DNA from: Kosmotoga olearia TBF 19.5.1
Lineage (GTDB): Bacteria; Thermotogota; Thermotogae; Petrotogales; Kosmotogaceae
Direction: 5' to 3'
Length of the DNA stretch: 64,000 nt
Assembly: GCF_000023325.1 (NCBI RefSeq)
Contig: NC_012785.1
Location: 1,922,001-1,986,000 of the forward strand
The notes beneath the pieces were generated by a model. The model was given only the letters and a program-made list of their open reading frames with translations, was not told the DNA's origin and made no database searches. Below are positions 3,741 to 37,214 of this stretch, piece by piece. Every line of letters starts with the position of its first letter. The stretch's first letter is position 1. Both the position numbers and the translations under genes were made by a program.

Positions 3741-4172
3741 ATGCAAGAACTATTGAAAACACTGGATCCAGATTTGGTATTGGTAGAAGCTTTTATTGAC
3801 GATAAAAAAATAGAACTCCATGCGAGAAAAGAGACTTCTGAAGAGGCTTGCCCATATTGTGGCGAAAAATCGAGGGGTGTCCACTCCGTATATCATAACA
3901 ATATCTCTGATTTACCCGTTCAAGAAAAGCTATTGACAATCATACTGGAGCGGAGAGTCTTTTTTTGTAAGAATCCCGAATGTGACCATGCGCGATTCCC
4001 GGAAACACTTCCTTTTGCCACCAGGTATGGAAGAAGAACAATCAGGTTGGATGAAAAAATCAGAGAAATCGCATTGAACATGAGTGCTCGTAGTGCAAAG
4101 AAAGTTATTAACAAAGGGATAGCCAGGATTTCGGATGACACAATTTTACGGATATTAAAAAAAACAAGTTAG
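3741..4172 (+). CDS. ISL3 transposase, N-terminal (zinc-ribbon) part before a -1 frameshift
   Basis: These 143 residues are the N-terminal DNA-binding part of an ISL3 transposase: a zinc ribbon with CPYCG (residues 37-41) and CKNPECDHARFPE, followed by a helix-turn-helix segment ending at residue 142. The frame terminates at TAG 4170-4172, immediately after an 8-A run (4157-4164). A -1 slip on A_AAA_AAA (4157-4163) would enter the frame of the downstream catalytic part without losing a residue: the fused sequence reads LRILKKNKLVVNTRVKR. The product is therefore either the short form of a programmed-frameshift transposase or half of a mutated one. Confidence 0.8.
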   Translation: MQELLKTLDPDLVLVEAFIDDKKIELHARKETSEEACPYCGEKSRGVHSVYHNNISDLPVQEKLLTIILERRVFFCKNPECDHARFPETLPFATRYGRRTIRLDEKIREIALNMSARSAKKVINKGIARISDDTILRILKKTS

Positions 4173-29345: not shown

Positions 29346-30715
29346 CGTAATGCCTCAAAAATAAATCTACTTGAAATAGGATGGATGCCTCAAAATAGAA
29401 TCTACTTGAAATTGAGAGGGACATAGTTGAGGATCCCTCCTTTCGATTTATCAATCTGGATGTTCACTAATTGTTCTTGGAAATGAGTTATTATACTCTT
29501 GAGTTTGTAAATGTCTAGGGCTTCGTGTTGTTTGCGAAGCCTGTCTTTTGTATTTTGGTCAACCCAGGGTGATTGCATGATCCTTTCGTATGGTGTAGTA
29601 GGGCGGTCGTATTTTTTGCTTACCTTGTTTCCTTTTCTAATTTTCTCAATGATTTTCTGATTTGGCTGAAAATGATTATTGTACAGATTCAGAGACGCAT
29701 ACAACTCCTTTAGTATTTGGAATTCTTCCTCTGTGTCGTATCTGTAATATCCAACGGCTCTTCTTACAACAGACCAGTTCTTTTGTTCGACATGACAATT
29801 ATCATTCTTGTTGTAACTCCGGGTTCTGGTGAATAGAAGCCCTTCATCTTCACAATAACGGTATATGTGTCTATTAATAAATTCTGATCCGTTATCTGAG
29901 TGAATACCTAATAAAGTGAAGGGAAGCGTTTTCCTCAACTGAATTATAGCTTTTAATGTCCAAATTTGCGCTTTGTTTCTTATTGGTGCCACTACACTCC
30001 AACCACTTGCTACATCTACCATGTTGAGGCTGTAGCAAAAATCACCACTTACACTCCCTCCATCATGCCCAATGAGGTCAACCTCAACAAAGCCTGGTCT
30101 TGTATCGTCCCACTCGTAATGTGTTTTTATTCGTATGTGCTTTTTCAGAAGAGTTCCGGGCTTTGTATGAGACCGTCCTTTGAGTTCCATCTTTTTCCTC
30201 TCGCTGGATAACAATCTGTCGATAGTGGAAGCACTTATATTAAGAAGCTTCCTTTTTGTTTCTTCAGTCAATGTTAGATGCCCATTGCGAACAAGATTAT
30301 CTATTACTTCACCCATCACTGCTTCGAGCCTTTTACCACACGGGAAATCCATTATCTCCCATATCCTCACGAGTTTCACGAAGACTTTGTGATCATATTT
30401 TTTCTTTCGACCCTTTTTCTGGCTGGGTGAGGTTGTCTTTCGCTTTTTTGAAGCTCCTCGTAGTAAAAACGATGCATAACTACGATTATATTTGGTAACT
30501 CGGGTGAACTCTTCTAGAATTTCGGATTTTTCCTTTTTGCGAGCTTTCCTGTACCTTTTTGAATAATCTTCCACCACATTTTTCATATCTAACCTCTTCA
30601 TCTTCTCGCCTACCTTCCCGGGTATTCGAGAAGATTATCCCTCTTTTTTGAGTAGATTTATTTTTGACGCAACGTTCCCTTTTCGAGTAGATTTTTTTTG
30701 AAGCAATTCGCCCTC
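29346..30715 (-). mobile_element. 1,370-bp insertion sequence (rve/ISNCY-like), copy 1 of 2
   Basis: The left end TGCCTCAAAAATAAATCTAC (29351-) is inverted at the right as TGCTTCAAAAAAAATCTACT (complement, ending about 30703). Each end also has a second inner copy of the TCAAAA...AATCTACT repeat about 40 bp inside. Copy 2 follows directly with the same sequence and exact 1,370-bp period. The outermost junction bases between IR and flank cannot be fixed because the copies are fused head to tail. Confidence 0.85.
29402..30601 (-). CDS. rve-type DDE transposase, IS copy 1
   Basis: The 399-residue protein has an N-terminal helix-turn-helix region (SEILEEFTRVTKYNRSYASFLL), a basic linker (KKRKTTSPSQKKGRKKKY) and an integrase-type catalytic core with the first Asp in PGFVEVDLIGHDGG, the second in LGIHSDNGSEFIN and the Glu in DNCHVEQKNWSVVRR. 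The C-terminus (KSKGGILNYVPLNFK) ends near the IS left end. It is uninterrupted and so could be active. It differs from the product of copy 2 at roughly 4-5 % of positions by eye, so the tandem arrangement is not a fresh duplication. The family is close to the ISNCY/IS481-like rve transposases; I cannot name it more exactly. Confidence 0.88.
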   Translation of the reverse strand: MKRLDMKNVVEDYSKRYRKARKKEKSEILEEFTRVTKYNRSYASFLLRGASKKRKTTSPSQKKGRKKKYDHKVFVKLVRIWEIMDFPCGKRLEAVMGEVIDNLVRNGHLTLTEETKRKLLNISASTIDRLLSSERKKMELKGRSHTKPGTLLKKHIRIKTHYEWDDTRPGFVEVDLIGHDGGSVSGDFCYSLNMVDVASGWSVVAPIRNKAQIWTLKAIIQLRKTLPFTLLGIHSDNGSEFINRHIYRYCEDEGLLFTRTRSYNKNDNCHVEQKNWSVVRRAVGYYRYDTEEEFQILKELYASLNLYNNHFQPNQKIIEKIRKGNKVSKKYDRPTTPYERIMQSPWVDQNTKDRLRKQHEALDIYKLKSIITHFQEQLVNIQIDKSKGGILNYVPLNFK

Positions 30716-32085
30716 CGTAATGCCTCAAAAATAAATCTACTTGAAATAGATTGGATGCCTCAAAATAGAATCTACTTGAAATTGAGAGGGACATAGTTGA
30801 GGATCCCTCCTTTCGATTTGTCAATCTGGATGCTCAGTAATTGCTCTTGCAAATGTGTTATTATACTCTTGAGTTTGTAAATGTCTAGGGCTTCGTGTTG
30901 TCTGCGAAGCCTGTCTTTTTTATCTTGGTCAACCCAGGGAGATCGCATGATCCTTTCGTATGGTGTAGTAGGACGGTCGTATTTCTTGCTTACCTTGTTT
31001 CCTTTTCTAATTTTCTCAACGATTTTCTGATTTGGCTGAAAATGATTATTGTACAGATTCAGCGACGCGTACAACTCCTTCAGTATTTGGAATTCTTCCT
31101 CTGTATCGTATCTGTAATATCCAACGGCTCTTCTTACAACAGACCAGTTCTTTTGTTCGACATGACAATTATCATTCTTGTTGTAACTCCGGGTTCTGGT
31201 GAATAGAAGCCCTTCATCTTCACAATAACGGTATAGGTGTCTGTTAATGAATTCTGATCCGTTATCTGAGTGAATACCTAATAAAGTGAAAGGAAGCGTT
31301 TTCCTCAACTGAATTATAGCTTTTAATGTCCAGATTTGCGCTTTGTTTCTTATTGGTGCCACTACACTCCAACCACTTGCTACATCTACCATGTTGAGGC
31401 TGTAGCAAAAATCACCACTTACACTCCCGCCATCATGCCCAACGAGATCAATCTCAACAAAGCCTGGTCTTGTATCGTCCCACTCGTAATGTGTTTTTAT
31501 TCGTATGTGCTTTTTCAGAAGAGTTCCGGGTTTTGTATGAGATCGTCCTTTGAGTTCCATCTTTTTCCTCTCGCTGGTTAACAATCTATCGATAGTGGAA
31601 GCACTTATATTAAGAAGCTTCCTCTTTGTTTCTTCAGTCAATGTTAGATGCCCATTACGAACAAGATTATCTATTACTTCGTCCATCACTGCTTCGAGCC
31701 TTTTACCACACGGAAAATCCATTATCTCCCATATCTTCACGAGTTTCACGAAGACTTTACGATCATATTTTTTCTTTCGGCCTTTTTTCTTGCTGGGTGA
31801 GGTTGTCTTTCGCTTTTTCAAGGCTCCTCGTAGTAAAAACGATGCGTAACTACGATTATACTTGGTAACTCGGGTGAATTCATCTAGAATCTCGGATTTT
31901 TCTTTTTTGCGAGCTTTTCTGTACCTTTTTGAATAATCTTCCACCACATTTTTCATATCTAACCTCTTCATCTTCTCGCCTACCTTCTTTGGTATTCGAG
32001 AAGATTATCCCTCTTTTTCGAGTAGATTTATTTTTGACGCAACGTTCCCTTTTCGAGTAGATTTTTTTTGAAGCAATTCGCCCTC
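30716..32085 (-). mobile_element. 1,370-bp insertion sequence (rve/ISNCY-like), copy 2 of 2
   Basis: This is the same element as copy 1 in the same orientation, beginning at the base after it. Its right end GAAGCAATTCGCCCTC ends at 32085, and the next base starts the TTGACA box of the asparagine-leader promoter. Confidence 0.85.
30772..31971 (-). CDS. rve-type DDE transposase, IS copy 2
   Basis: The 399-residue protein is collinear with the transposase of copy 1 and differs by conservative substitutions scattered through the length (for example FVEIDLVGHDGG against FVEVDLIGHDGG). All three catalytic residues (D in VEIDLVG, D in IHSDNGSEF, E in CHVEQKN) and the N-terminal helix-turn-helix region are kept. 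The frame is complete. Whichever copy is expressed could mobilise both, since their ends are nearly identical. Confidence 0.88.
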   Translation of the reverse strand: MKRLDMKNVVEDYSKRYRKARKKEKSEILDEFTRVTKYNRSYASFLLRGALKKRKTTSPSKKKGRKKKYDRKVFVKLVKIWEIMDFPCGKRLEAVMDEVIDNLVRNGHLTLTEETKRKLLNISASTIDRLLTSERKKMELKGRSHTKPGTLLKKHIRIKTHYEWDDTRPGFVEIDLVGHDGGSVSGDFCYSLNMVDVASGWSVVAPIRNKAQIWTLKAIIQLRKTLPFTLLGIHSDNGSEFINRHLYRYCEDEGLLFTRTRSYNKNDNCHVEQKNWSVVRRAVGYYRYDTEEEFQILKELYASLNLYNNHFQPNQKIVEKIRKGNKVSKKYDRPTTPYERIMRSPWVDQDKKDRLRRQHEALDIYKLKSIITHLQEQLLSIQIDKSKGGILNYVPLNFK

Positions 32086-32115
32086 TTGACATTTTACCTT
32101 TGATTCTGGTAATAT
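32086..32115 (+). promoter_or_regulatory. Consensus promoter of the asparagine leader/asnA unit
   Basis: TTGACA (32086-32091), an 18-nt spacer and TAATAT (32110-32115) place the transcript start near 32122, about 26 nt before the leader ATG. The -35 box abuts the IS right end. Confidence 0.85.
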
Positions 32116-32147
32116 CGGTTCAAAGAAATTCGTGAAGGAGAATTGTG

Positions 32148-32237
32148 ATGAGAGAGATTCTTATTGTAAGTATAAGTGCACAAATATTCGAAAATTCCAA
32201 TAACAATAATAATTTCAAGCGCCGGCTCCGGTGCTAA
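32148..32237 (+). CDS. Asn-rich leader peptide of a transcription attenuator
   Basis: The 29-codon ORF has SD AAGGAG (32135-32140), ATG 32148 and TAA 32235-32237. Codons 16 and 18-22 are all Asn (five AAT, one AAC): six Asn codons in a run of seven, interrupted by one Ser. The next codons (FKRRLRC) are written by the first strand of the antiterminator, so the ribosome's position controls RNA folding. With abundant Asn-tRNA the ribosome reaches the stop and covers 32221-32228; when it stalls on the Asn codons that strand is free. Amino-acid-rich leaders of this kind are known for his, trp, leu and ilv operons. The gene that follows makes asparagine, which matches the codon composition. Confidence 0.9.
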   Translation: MREILIVSISAQIFENSNNNNNFKRRLRC

Positions 32238-32265
32238 GTGCTGTTTTTGCACATAAAGAGCCGGC
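32221..32265 (+). promoter_or_regulatory. Antiterminator helix of the asnA attenuator
   Basis: GCCGGCTC (32221-32228) is perfectly complementary to GAGCCGGC (32258-32265), and GTGC (32231-32234) to GCAC (32249-32252). The right strand is also the left arm of the terminator, so the two structures exclude each other. Confidence 0.85.
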
Positions 32266-32293
32266 ACCTATTGTTGGGTGCCGGCTTTTTTTA
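32259..32293 (+). terminator. Attenuator terminator before asnA
   Basis: AGCCGGCACC (32259-32268) pairs perfectly with GGTGCCGGCT (32277-32286) and is followed by seven T. It lies between the leader stop and the asnA SD, so it can only act as a conditional terminator. Confidence 0.93.
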
Positions 32294-32319
32294 TATACAC
32301 TTAAAGGAGGCGAGGTTTA

Positions 32320-33264
32320 ATGATGAAAGGTTGTTCAGACCGTCTTGAAATGGTGAGAAGTTATTTAGTGGACGAAACTTACAGAGACGCGTTATTAGTC
32401 CAGAGCGAACTTTTGAAAGGCTTGAGGGAAACTCTTGACGCCAAAGGTTTTGTCGAAATTCTTCCTGTTATTCTCTCTCCCATTACCGATCCGCTGAACC
32501 ACGAGGTGTTTGACGCCAGTGTGGAATACTACGGCCAGAATTATGCTGTAACGAAATCTATGATACTTCACAAACAGATAAGTGTTCTTGTACACGAAAA
32601 GATATACAGCGTATCGCCGAATGTTCGTCTCGAAACAGCCGATAAGGCAGATTCAGGCCGACACCTTTTTGAATTTGTGCAGCTGGATATGGAAGTCGCC
32701 GGAGCTTCCAGGGACGAGATAATGGATGTAATGGAAGATGCAATAATCTATGCGATAAGAAATGTTTTGTCTAAATATCCATGGGTTAAAGAGAAATACC
32801 ATCCGACATTGAAAGTTCCCGCAAAACCTTTCAAAAGGATAACGGTGAAAGAAGCGGTGGAAAAGTATGGAGAAGCTTTTGAAAGTGGTCTTTCAAAGGA
32901 TATTGATGAACCTGTCTGGCTCATAGACATTCCGTTGCTCAACAGAGAATTCTACGATAAACAGGACCCGGAAAGACCGGATGTGTTGCTTGATTTTGAT
33001 CTTATATATCCTGAAGGTTTCGGTGAAGGAATATCGGGTGGAGAAAGGGAACACGAATATGAACAGATAATCAGGAGAATGAAATTAAAGGGAACGAGCC
33101 CGGAAGAATATACGGACTATCTTGAACTGGCAAAACAGGGGGTTTTAAAACCGTCTGCCGGTTGCGGGATAGGTATAGAAAGATTTACAAGGTACGTTAT
33201 GGGACTTGAACACGTGCGGCAGACGAGACTTTTCGCCAAAGTTCCGGGAGAAAGCGCACTTTAA
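32320..33264 (+). CDS. asnA: Archaeal-type asparagine synthetase (class II aaRS-like)
   Basis: The 314-residue protein is the catalytic core of an AspRS/AsnRS-like class II synthetase without the anticodon-binding domain. Motif 2 region is visible in ADKADSGRHLFEFVQLDMEV and motif 3 in AGCGIGIERFTRYVM; HEVFDASVEYYGQNYAVTKSM is the loop before motif 2. Proteins of this size and layout are the archaeal asparagine synthetases (AsnRS paralogues) that make Asn from Asp, ATP and ammonia. It differs from the E. coli AsnA lineage. ATG 32320 has SD AAAGGAGG; a second ATG follows at once. The Asn-codon attenuator upstream independently supports a role in asparagine supply. A truncated-synthetase role other than Asn synthesis is less likely. 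Confidence 0.85.
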   Translation: MMKGCSDRLEMVRSYLVDETYRDALLVQSELLKGLRETLDAKGFVEILPVILSPITDPLNHEVFDASVEYYGQNYAVTKSMILHKQISVLVHEKIYSVSPNVRLETADKADSGRHLFEFVQLDMEVAGASRDEIMDVMEDAIIYAIRNVLSKYPWVKEKYHPTLKVPAKPFKRITVKEAVEKYGEAFESGLSKDIDEPVWLIDIPLLNREFYDKQDPERPDVLLDFDLIYPEGFGEGISGGEREHEYEQIIRRMKLKGTSPEEYTDYLELAKQGVLKPSAGCGIGIERFTRYVMGLEHVRQTRLFAKVPGESAL

Positions 33265-35885: not shown

Positions 35886-35921
35886 CTCATTGACTGCACA
35901 ATGTTTTTTGGAGGAATCAGT

Positions 35922-37214
35922 ATGGATATTGTGGGAATTGACTGGTCGTGGAATTTTCACACCTGCTATTCTATCGAACAGGATAAGGTTTTTAAGATCA
36001 AGGATGGTATAGCGGGGTATGAGAAGTTGTTGAAGATGGTATCAGAAGACGCTGTTTTCGTCATTGAGGAAAGTTTTAATCGTTTGGGAGATTTCTTGCT
36101 ATCCAGAGGGAAAGAGGTTTATCTCCTGCCACCAAAAAGGTCAAAGGAAGCCAGAGGCTATCATTCGAACGGCGTGAAGACAGATTCAACAGATGCCAGG
36201 TGTATCGCCCTTACCTACAAAGAACACCCGGAATATTGTATCAAGGCAACACATGACGAACTCGGCATGCTTTTCAGGGAATTATTGAGGCATTACAGGT
36301 ACTATACCGACATGTCCTCAAGACTTAAGAACAAACTTCAAAACGAACTTCATAATTATTTCCCTGAATATGCTAGGGTGATGGGTAATTCTTGGACAGA
36401 TTGTGACGGGAGGATATTCCTGCTCACCATATGCCCGGATGTAACCGAACTCAGGAAGATTTCTGACAAGGAGATAAATAGACATTTCAAAGCGAATCAT
36501 CTACGCTACACATCCTCATTGAAAAGAAAGGTCAAAGAACTCAGGGAAAAAGCCATTGACTGGGGCATGTCGAAATACACCAGGGACATGATCGCGAATG
36601 TTGCCACACAACTTCTGGAAGCAAAAAGAGAGAAAAAGAAAATAACAAAAGAGATGGAGAAAGAACTACGTAAATCGAAATACAACATAATACTGACGCT
36701 CCCGGGTGTTGGAGTAGCTACAGGAATGGCATTAGTAACAGCATTTCTTACACACGAATTCAAAAATTACAGGGATTTCCAGAAGTATTGTGGAACTATG
36801 CCAATAGTATCCCAGAGTGGTAATTTTCGCATGTGCAGGATGAGGAAAAACTGTGACAAGAAACTCAGAGGCATTCTCCATATGATGGCGATAAACGCGA
36901 AGAAATGCGGAGCATGGATGAAAGGCTACTATGACAAGAAGACAAATAAAGAGGGCAAGAAACCATCTCTTGCCCTCAGAGCATTGGCGAACATCCTCGT
37001 CAAGATAGCCTTCGCCATGCTAAGAAACCTAAAAGCCTACGATGAGGAACTCTTCCTTTCCTCACGTGGGAACAAGAGTCCTCGGTTAAATTATACAACA
37101 AGAAATAGCATACCGGGGACTAAAAAAATGAAGAAAGAAAAGTTATCCCTGCCTGTCTCTGTTGCTCAAACCAACTGCCATTTGGGAACAGTTTCAGGTA
37201 GTCTGTCTCCTTGA
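35922..37214 (+). CDS. IS110-family DEDD recombinase
   Basis: The product is 430 residues from ATG 35922 (SD GGAGG 7 nt upstream); the frame opens at 35901 without an SD. The N-terminal RuvC-like DEDD domain starts MDIVGIDWSWNFHTCY (first Asp), with a Glu in AVFVIEESFNRLGDF and Asp residues in GVKTDSTDARCIAL. A coiled helical region follows (about 200-255). The C-terminal transposase_20 domain has LTLPGVGVATGMALVTAF and the serine segment MPIVSQSGNF. IS110 recombinases act with a bridge RNA that specifies target and donor. The sequence is intact, so the element may be active. Confidence 0.92.
   Translation: MDIVGIDWSWNFHTCYSIEQDKVFKIKDGIAGYEKLLKMVSEDAVFVIEESFNRLGDFLLSRGKEVYLLPPKRSKEARGYHSNGVKTDSTDARCIALTYKEHPEYCIKATHDELGMLFRELLRHYRYYTDMSSRLKNKLQNELHNYFPEYARVMGNSWTDCDGRIFLLTICPDVTELRKISDKEINRHFKANHLRYTSSLKRKVKELREKAIDWGMSKYTRDMIANVATQLLEAKREKKKITKEMEKELRKSKYNIILTLPGVGVATGMALVTAFLTHEFKNYRDFQKYCGTMPIVSQSGNFRMCRMRKNCDKKLRGILHMMAINAKKCGAWMKGYYDKKTNKEGKKPSLALRALANILVKIAFAMLRNLKAYDEELFLSSRGNKSPRLNYTTRNSIPGTKKMKKEKLSLPVSVAQTNCHLGTVSGSLSP

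Follow-up and report, generated by a model that had tools for sequence, protein, structure and literature searches.

In the enterobacterial attenuators of the trp, his, leu, ilv, thr and phe operons, a leader ORF is rich in codons for the amino acid that the regulated genes make, and an antiterminator and a U-tract terminator are formed as alternatives, together with a pre-emptor hairpin. The element that we describe here, upstream of the asparagine synthetase gene asnA of Kosmotoga olearia TBF 19.5.1, has all of these parts. It differs from the enterobacterial attenuators in that it would sense asparagine and that its host belongs to the Thermotogota. It also differs from trp in its geometry: the 5' strand of its antiterminator is the coding end of the leader ORF and would be masked directly once a ribosome reaches the stop codon. 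In trp, by contrast, it is the stalled ribosome that masks a strand, namely strand 1 of a 1:2 hairpin. The T-boxes of Firmicutes likewise read tRNA charging to control genes of the same kinds, but they bind uncharged tRNA directly and have no leader ORF. Leader peptides without terminators precede the cys operons of Mycobacterium (PMC1262725); the element of K. olearia is distinguished from these by its terminator and belongs to what we call class 1.

Candidate leader peptides have been described across many bacteria, also outside the Proteobacteria and Actinobacteria (PMC2965389), with no mention of asparagine or Thermotoga in that paper and none of an Asn leader in PMC1262725. The initial annotation of this locus knew of no Asn leader in Thermotogota, and in the open-access literature we also found no description of one, either as an asparagine-specific leader-peptide attenuator or as any leader-peptide attenuator in this phylum. 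The element would therefore extend a textbook mechanism to one more amino acid. The mechanism is of a known kind; what appears to be new is the amino acid sensed, the host phylum and the connection with glnA and amtB-PII described below. Reportedly, candidate leader peptides in many bacteria were also surveyed by Lopatovskaya et al. 2010 (Mol Biol 44:128). The case is of further interest since it would extend attenuation to an early-branching thermophilic phylum, in which the coupling of transcription and translation must work at high temperature.

The asnA leader and its proposed mechanism

The window analysed here is a stretch of 64,000 nucleotides, positions 1922001-1986000 of a complete genome of 2,302,126 bases. 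Between the end of an IS30-like element (32085) and asnA (32320), its forward strand carries in this order a promoter, a Shine-Dalgarno sequence, a leader ORF, hairpins, a terminator and a further Shine-Dalgarno sequence. The sigma-70-type promoter (32086-32115) consists of TTGACA (32086-32091) and TAATAT (32110-32115) spaced by 18 nt; it matches the consensus at 10 of 12 positions, with a TG ahead of the second hexamer, and a TTGACA/TATAAT-like pair is found at the equivalent position in many relatives. The sequence AAGGAG (32135-32140) lies 7 nt 5' of the ATG (32148) of the 29-codon leader ORF (32148-32237, stop TAA at 32235-32237), which reads MREILIVSISAQIFENSNNNNNFKRRLRC. Its codons 16-22 (AAT TCC AAT AAC AAT AAT AAT, 32193-32213) encode NSNNNNN, that is six asparagines in seven positions. 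The promoter, the Shine-Dalgarno sequence of the leader and the leader ORF with its Asn codons had been named by the initial annotation and are present in the sequence as it described them. A cluster of codons for a single amino acid is thus found in a translatable leader ORF, and a terminator lies between this ORF and asnA.

Folding and covariation define the two alternative helices. The 5' strand of the antiterminator, GCCGGCTC (32221-32228), falls within the final leader codons, as had been noted before, and its 3' strand is GAGCCGGC (32258-32265). The intrinsic terminator (32259-32292) has a TTGT loop and a tract of seven T (32286-32292), with a folding energy of -23.8 kcal/mol and a z-score of -6.3. 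Antiterminator and terminator are mutually exclusive because nucleotides 32259-32265 are common to both. The seven T and the exclusivity had both been recognized in the initial annotation, which gave the stem as a perfect 10-bp helix; we find instead 12 pairs, one of them G-U (32259-32270/32275-32286). A further element, absent from that annotation, is the hairpin 1:2, AGCGCCG/CGGTGCT (32218-32235; strands 32218-32224 and 32229-32235), predicted by folding. Its 5' strand overlaps that of the antiterminator, with which it thus competes, and its equivalent in Petrotogaceae is a CAGCGT/ACGCTG pairing. The Shine-Dalgarno sequence of asnA, AAGGAGG (32304-32310), stands outside all helices, and the leader stop codon is 82 nt from the asnA start.

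The regulated gene, asnA (32320-33264, 314 aa), was thought to encode an archaeal-type asparagine synthetase (AS-AR, class II aaRS-like), and a profile search bears this out: its product matches NF005054 (asparagine synthetase A) with 470.7 bits, above the curated cut-off of 309, and has the length expected without an anticodon-binding domain. The gene, assigned by profile and of predicted activity, would thus supply the very amino acid that is sensed. In the same genome, the profile search found no AsnB above cut-off and an AsnRS-sized homologue is present separately; therefore asnA looks like, and on this sequence evidence probably is, the sole source of free asparagine. GatCAB (GatB) is also present in this genome, which we count against the attenuator reading: Asn-tRNA might conceivably be formed indirectly despite the AsnRS-like gene.

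We propose that the region 32086-32320 controls asnA by ribosome-mediated transcription attenuation specific for asparagine, as the initial annotation had suggested, and we give this reading a probability of about 0.9 in view of the conserved helices and Asn codons and of the fitting geometry in our folding models. The sequence analysis shows the elements, their conservation and covariation and the energies of the alternatives; that the ribosome stalls, that transcription terminates in vivo and that the signal is asparagine, we infer. Transcription would start near 32120, and a ribosome would follow along the leader ORF. With ample Asn-tRNA, this ribosome would reach the stop codon (32235) and mask the antiterminator 5' strand (32221-32228), so that the terminator (32259-32292) would form and transcription would end ahead of asnA. 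In a shortage of Asn-tRNA, it would stall at Asn codons 18-21 and leave that strand free, and it may also mask the 5' half of hairpin 1:2. The antiterminator (32221-32228/32258-32265) would then form once transcribed and pre-empt the terminator, and asnA would be made.

The geometry was analyzed by folding the RNA with the ribosome footprint removed, the edge of the footprint being assumed to lie 16 nt past the P-site. In these conditions, the terminator alone can form when the ribosome is at the stop codon. When the A-site is placed at Asn18 or Asn20 and the RNA extends to 32266-32280, the antiterminator reaches -22.3 kcal/mol versus -16.8 kcal/mol for the hairpin 1:2 state; with a stall at the last Asn codon, the antiterminator strand is partly masked. 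Under the assumed footprint edge, a stalled ribosome thus spares the strand that a ribosome at the stop codon masks. On the other hand, the terminator is always favoured when the complete RNA is folded at equilibrium, which counts against the attenuator reading. Since the complete terminator is the most stable state, the antiterminator would have to act kinetically, as it does in other attenuators. The construct is short and amenable to reporter or in vitro tests.

Conservation in Thermotogota and competing explanations

asnA is present in 35 of the 38 genomes of the order (strong matches) and in 49 of the 103 genomes of the phylum (E <= 1e-40). The same arrangement precedes it in all 48 Thermotogota loci with enough upstream sequence, which belong to five families (f1, f2, f4, f7 and f11; the upstream sequence was too short in genomes G046 and G037, which were excluded): a short ORF, an Asn run just 5' of its stop codon, an antiterminator strand at the ORF end, and a terminator. 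The Asn runs of the relatives comprise 2-8 codons; some Mesotoga-like relatives (genus g4) have merely 2-3, which we count against the attenuator reading. As a rule, no more than about 12 nt lie between the last Asn codon and the antiterminator strand 3' of it, and this strand ends close to the stop codon. At one locus (L013), the leader lies about 600 nt upstream of asnA, with about 550 inserted bases between the terminator and the gene.

Covariation was assessed on an alignment of the f2 leaders and that of the window. The antiterminator is paired in 90.8% of cells, and a double change is seen in 15 cells (3.9 +/- 2.3 in shuffles); for the terminator, the figures are 98% of cells paired and 19 with a double change (5.2 +/- 2.6 in shuffles), the shuffle counts ignoring relatedness. 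Both signals are destroyed when the partner strand is shifted by 1-3 columns. In f1/f11, the three strands A/B/C change jointly from ATCGGTC/GGCCGAT/ATCGGCC to ACCGGTC/GGCCGGT/ACCGGCC, as two mutually exclusive helices with one common strand require. An alignment of the upstream regions of relatives had been advised as a check of the initial annotation, and it shows that the Asn codons and both alternative helices are preserved, with substitutions in the helices that compensate one another. The absence of conserved Asn codons or alternative helices in relatives was to speak against the proposal; both are present across the asnA-bearing families.

One could still wonder whether an AAT-rich low-complexity stretch came to lie beside a terminator by chance in an AT-rich genome. 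In favor of this, the pattern (AAY)5 is no commoner in the 2.3-Mb genome than its reversed control, each occurring four times; two of the four (AAY)5 sites are the window leader and its native-type relic, described below. Against it stand the arrangement in 48 of 48 orthologous loci, the covariation, and the results of a fixed detector demanding at least 4 Asn in 8 codons, a start codon and a terminator at the correct distance. This detector recovers 40 of 45 leaders of relatives, the five misses having few Asn codons, and finds nothing in 600 other windows of the 64-kb sequence or in 900 dinucleotide shuffles; its sole matches among other control windows of relatives (2 of 1283) are both on short contigs, in windows that overlap a genuine asnA leader. 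Folding gives the window leader z-scores of -5.7 to -6.8. A chance origin is refuted by these comparative data and controls, and the probability that we leave to it is practically nil. In Firmicutes, T-boxes are familiar elements upstream of genes for asparagine and aminoacyl-tRNA synthetases, and one could imagine that a T-box or a ligand-binding riboswitch controls the terminator, the Asn run being incidental. However, the space between promoter and terminator is filled by the ORF and three short helices, the Asn codons are the most constant feature of the leaders, and neither the window nor nine related loci matched any Rfam family, T-box included. A T-box or riboswitch identity was thus rejected, and we hold it to be extremely unlikely.

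Two other explanations keep the leader ORF in use and are, in our view, each very unlikely. The product of the ORF could be a small peptide that acts in its own right, in trans or through nascent-chain arrest, the terminator being the ordinary boundary of an upstream unit. Trans-acting leader peptides such as peTrpL exist (PMC7298713), and the last residues of the leaders are conserved within families (QRR, WPGSVG). These residues, however, coincide with the antiterminator strand and change with it between families, the N-terminal halves of the leaders are not conserved, and the antiterminator covaries independently; furthermore, because the promoter directly precedes the leader, such a terminator would close a transcript of only 170 nt. 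Control could also be translational, a stalled ribosome altering access to the asnA ribosome-binding site or permitting re-initiation, and little probability attaches to this either. Re-initiation from leader ORFs has been proposed for many bacteria (PMC4833913), and some Asn leaders of Aminicenantes and Bipolaricaulota (class 2, see below) are without a U-tract terminator. In the window, by contrast, the antiterminator shows covariation with a strong U-tract terminator, asnA starts 82 nt past the leader stop, and the asnA Shine-Dalgarno sequence is free of all helices.

History of the locus

The AsnA protein of the window is 66-69% identical to those of its closest Petrotogaceae relatives and about 50% identical to those of its own family, and in the tree it branches inside the Petrotogaceae clade with a support of 100/97. 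The same genome carries elsewhere, at G000:C1:791982-792082 (L051; L135 7980-8082), a second Asn leader with a terminator, of the type of its own family and ending in KDNNNNNRPGSVGYCFI before the stop; this copy belonged to the training set of the model R2 used below. It stands directly before a gene (L135 8292-10061) that is 74-75% identical to the gene found directly 3' of asnA in two genomes of sister genera (G002 and G003). An asnA remnant behind this leader was sought at that locus and none was recognised. To judge from the sequences, the orphan leader is probably a relic of a replaced asnA locus. The position of AsnA inside the Petrotogaceae and the native-type leader without asnA suggest, therefore, an apparent acquisition of asnA along with its attenuator, in place of the native pair. 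The simplest reading would be that the native asnA was lost, its leader being left behind, and that a Petrotogaceae-type asnA arrived with its own attenuator. That the attenuator travels with asnA after an apparent horizontal transfer counts in favor of the attenuator reading, as does its presence ahead of glnA and amtB-PII, described below. The locus would be an example of a native pair displaced, apparently by horizontal transfer, by another gene that brought its own attenuator, the orphan leader being what is left of it.

Two near-identical IS30-like transposase genes are located at 29402-30601 and 30772-32085 of the window, and the end of the second element abuts exactly the -35 box (32086) of the asnA promoter. 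This element may have replaced the former upstream sequence. An ORF of 437 aa at 35901-37214 resembles by eye an IS110-type transposase.

Asparagine leaders of other genes and other phyla

The initial annotation regarded the Asn leader of asnA as a single case. The element itself stands, but it is phylum-wide and in relatives also precedes genes of nitrogen assimilation. A model of the terminator structure built from the f2 leaders and the window (R1) finds, besides asnA, a second site in five species of genus g11 (E about 3e-10). At this site, a gltD ORF (TIGR01317) ending in KECNEYLISSNNNNNKQRRLKTL is followed by an attenuator, by amtB (TIGR00836) and by a gene for a PII protein. The gltD end SSNNNNNKQRRLKTL, an Asn-type attenuator and amtB/PII are found at L158 2433-5750 (G031; gltD-amtB junction at 3920-4090), L149 and L150, with model matches in G030 and G033. 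The C-terminal codons of an enzyme gene would thus serve as the leader. With a second RNA model (R2), we found Asn leaders with attenuator structures upstream of glnA (TIGR00653) in three genomes: L156 (G100), L157 (G045, Athalassotoga) and L163 (G047, whose glnA product was recognized because it closely resembles the G045 protein). The weak matches of this model (L160, L161, L164-L170) were discarded as unrelated terminators without Asn leaders.

The same searches gave leaders with runs of other amino acids: Thr upstream of thrS (L152 in G037, L153 in G036), Asp upstream of a non-discriminating aspartate-tRNA ligase (L154 in G036), and His upstream of a gene that matches HisZ weakly, with 65 bits for a cut-off of 272 (L162 in G042). 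Leader-peptide attenuation therefore looks general in these bacteria. The presence of the Asn attenuator upstream of glnA and amtB-PII also suggests that Asn-tRNA charging may report nitrogen status, which would link it to ammonia assimilation. An interesting and, in our opinion, rather likely hypothesis would thus be that the Thermotogota use Asn-tRNA charging as a nitrogen-status signal, with the Asn attenuator on asnA throughout, on glnA in members of at least two families and on amtB-PII behind gltBD in one genus, where the leader is the C-terminal end of the GltD reading frame, this attenuator being one of several (His, Thr, Asp) of the leader-peptide type in the phylum. A short ORF ending in MNMYWYIFGRDRPICRLV, with a terminator, lies upstream of a gene for an ABC-type substrate-binding protein in G003 (L159 308-394).

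Outside the Thermotogota, we surveyed the best 80 AS-AR loci of a GTDB scan. Among these, the class 1 leader recurs at two Caldisericum loci, which group with Mesoaciditogales in the tree; an Asn run with a terminator is also found at L147 (one member of the Acidobacteriota/Aminicenantes sample). Other AS-AR genes are preceded by what we call class 2 leaders, whose stop codon lies in or next to a strong hairpin and which have no intrinsic terminator (L064, L088, L090, L104, L106, L108, L115, L123, L128, L131 and L144-L146, as well as L063, L070 and L077). Leaders ending in NNNNVPF occur in Aminicenantes, in an Acidobacteriota MAG and in a Clostridiales MAG; their stop lies within a CGTCCCC/GGGGACG hairpin, with no terminator. 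The Asn-containing end is more divergent in Bipolaricaulota and in a Neomarinimicrobiota MAG (NNPFFCVHNPNASF), where it lies next to a hairpin. None of 30 archaeal loci passed the test for class 2. One may guess that class 2 acts through Rho-dependent or translational control. Like the Mycobacterium cys leaders (PMC1262725), class 2 leaders have codons for the sensed amino acid close to the stop and are without an intrinsic terminator; they differ from them in that this amino acid would be Asn instead of Cys and that their stop codon lies within or beside a conserved hairpin.
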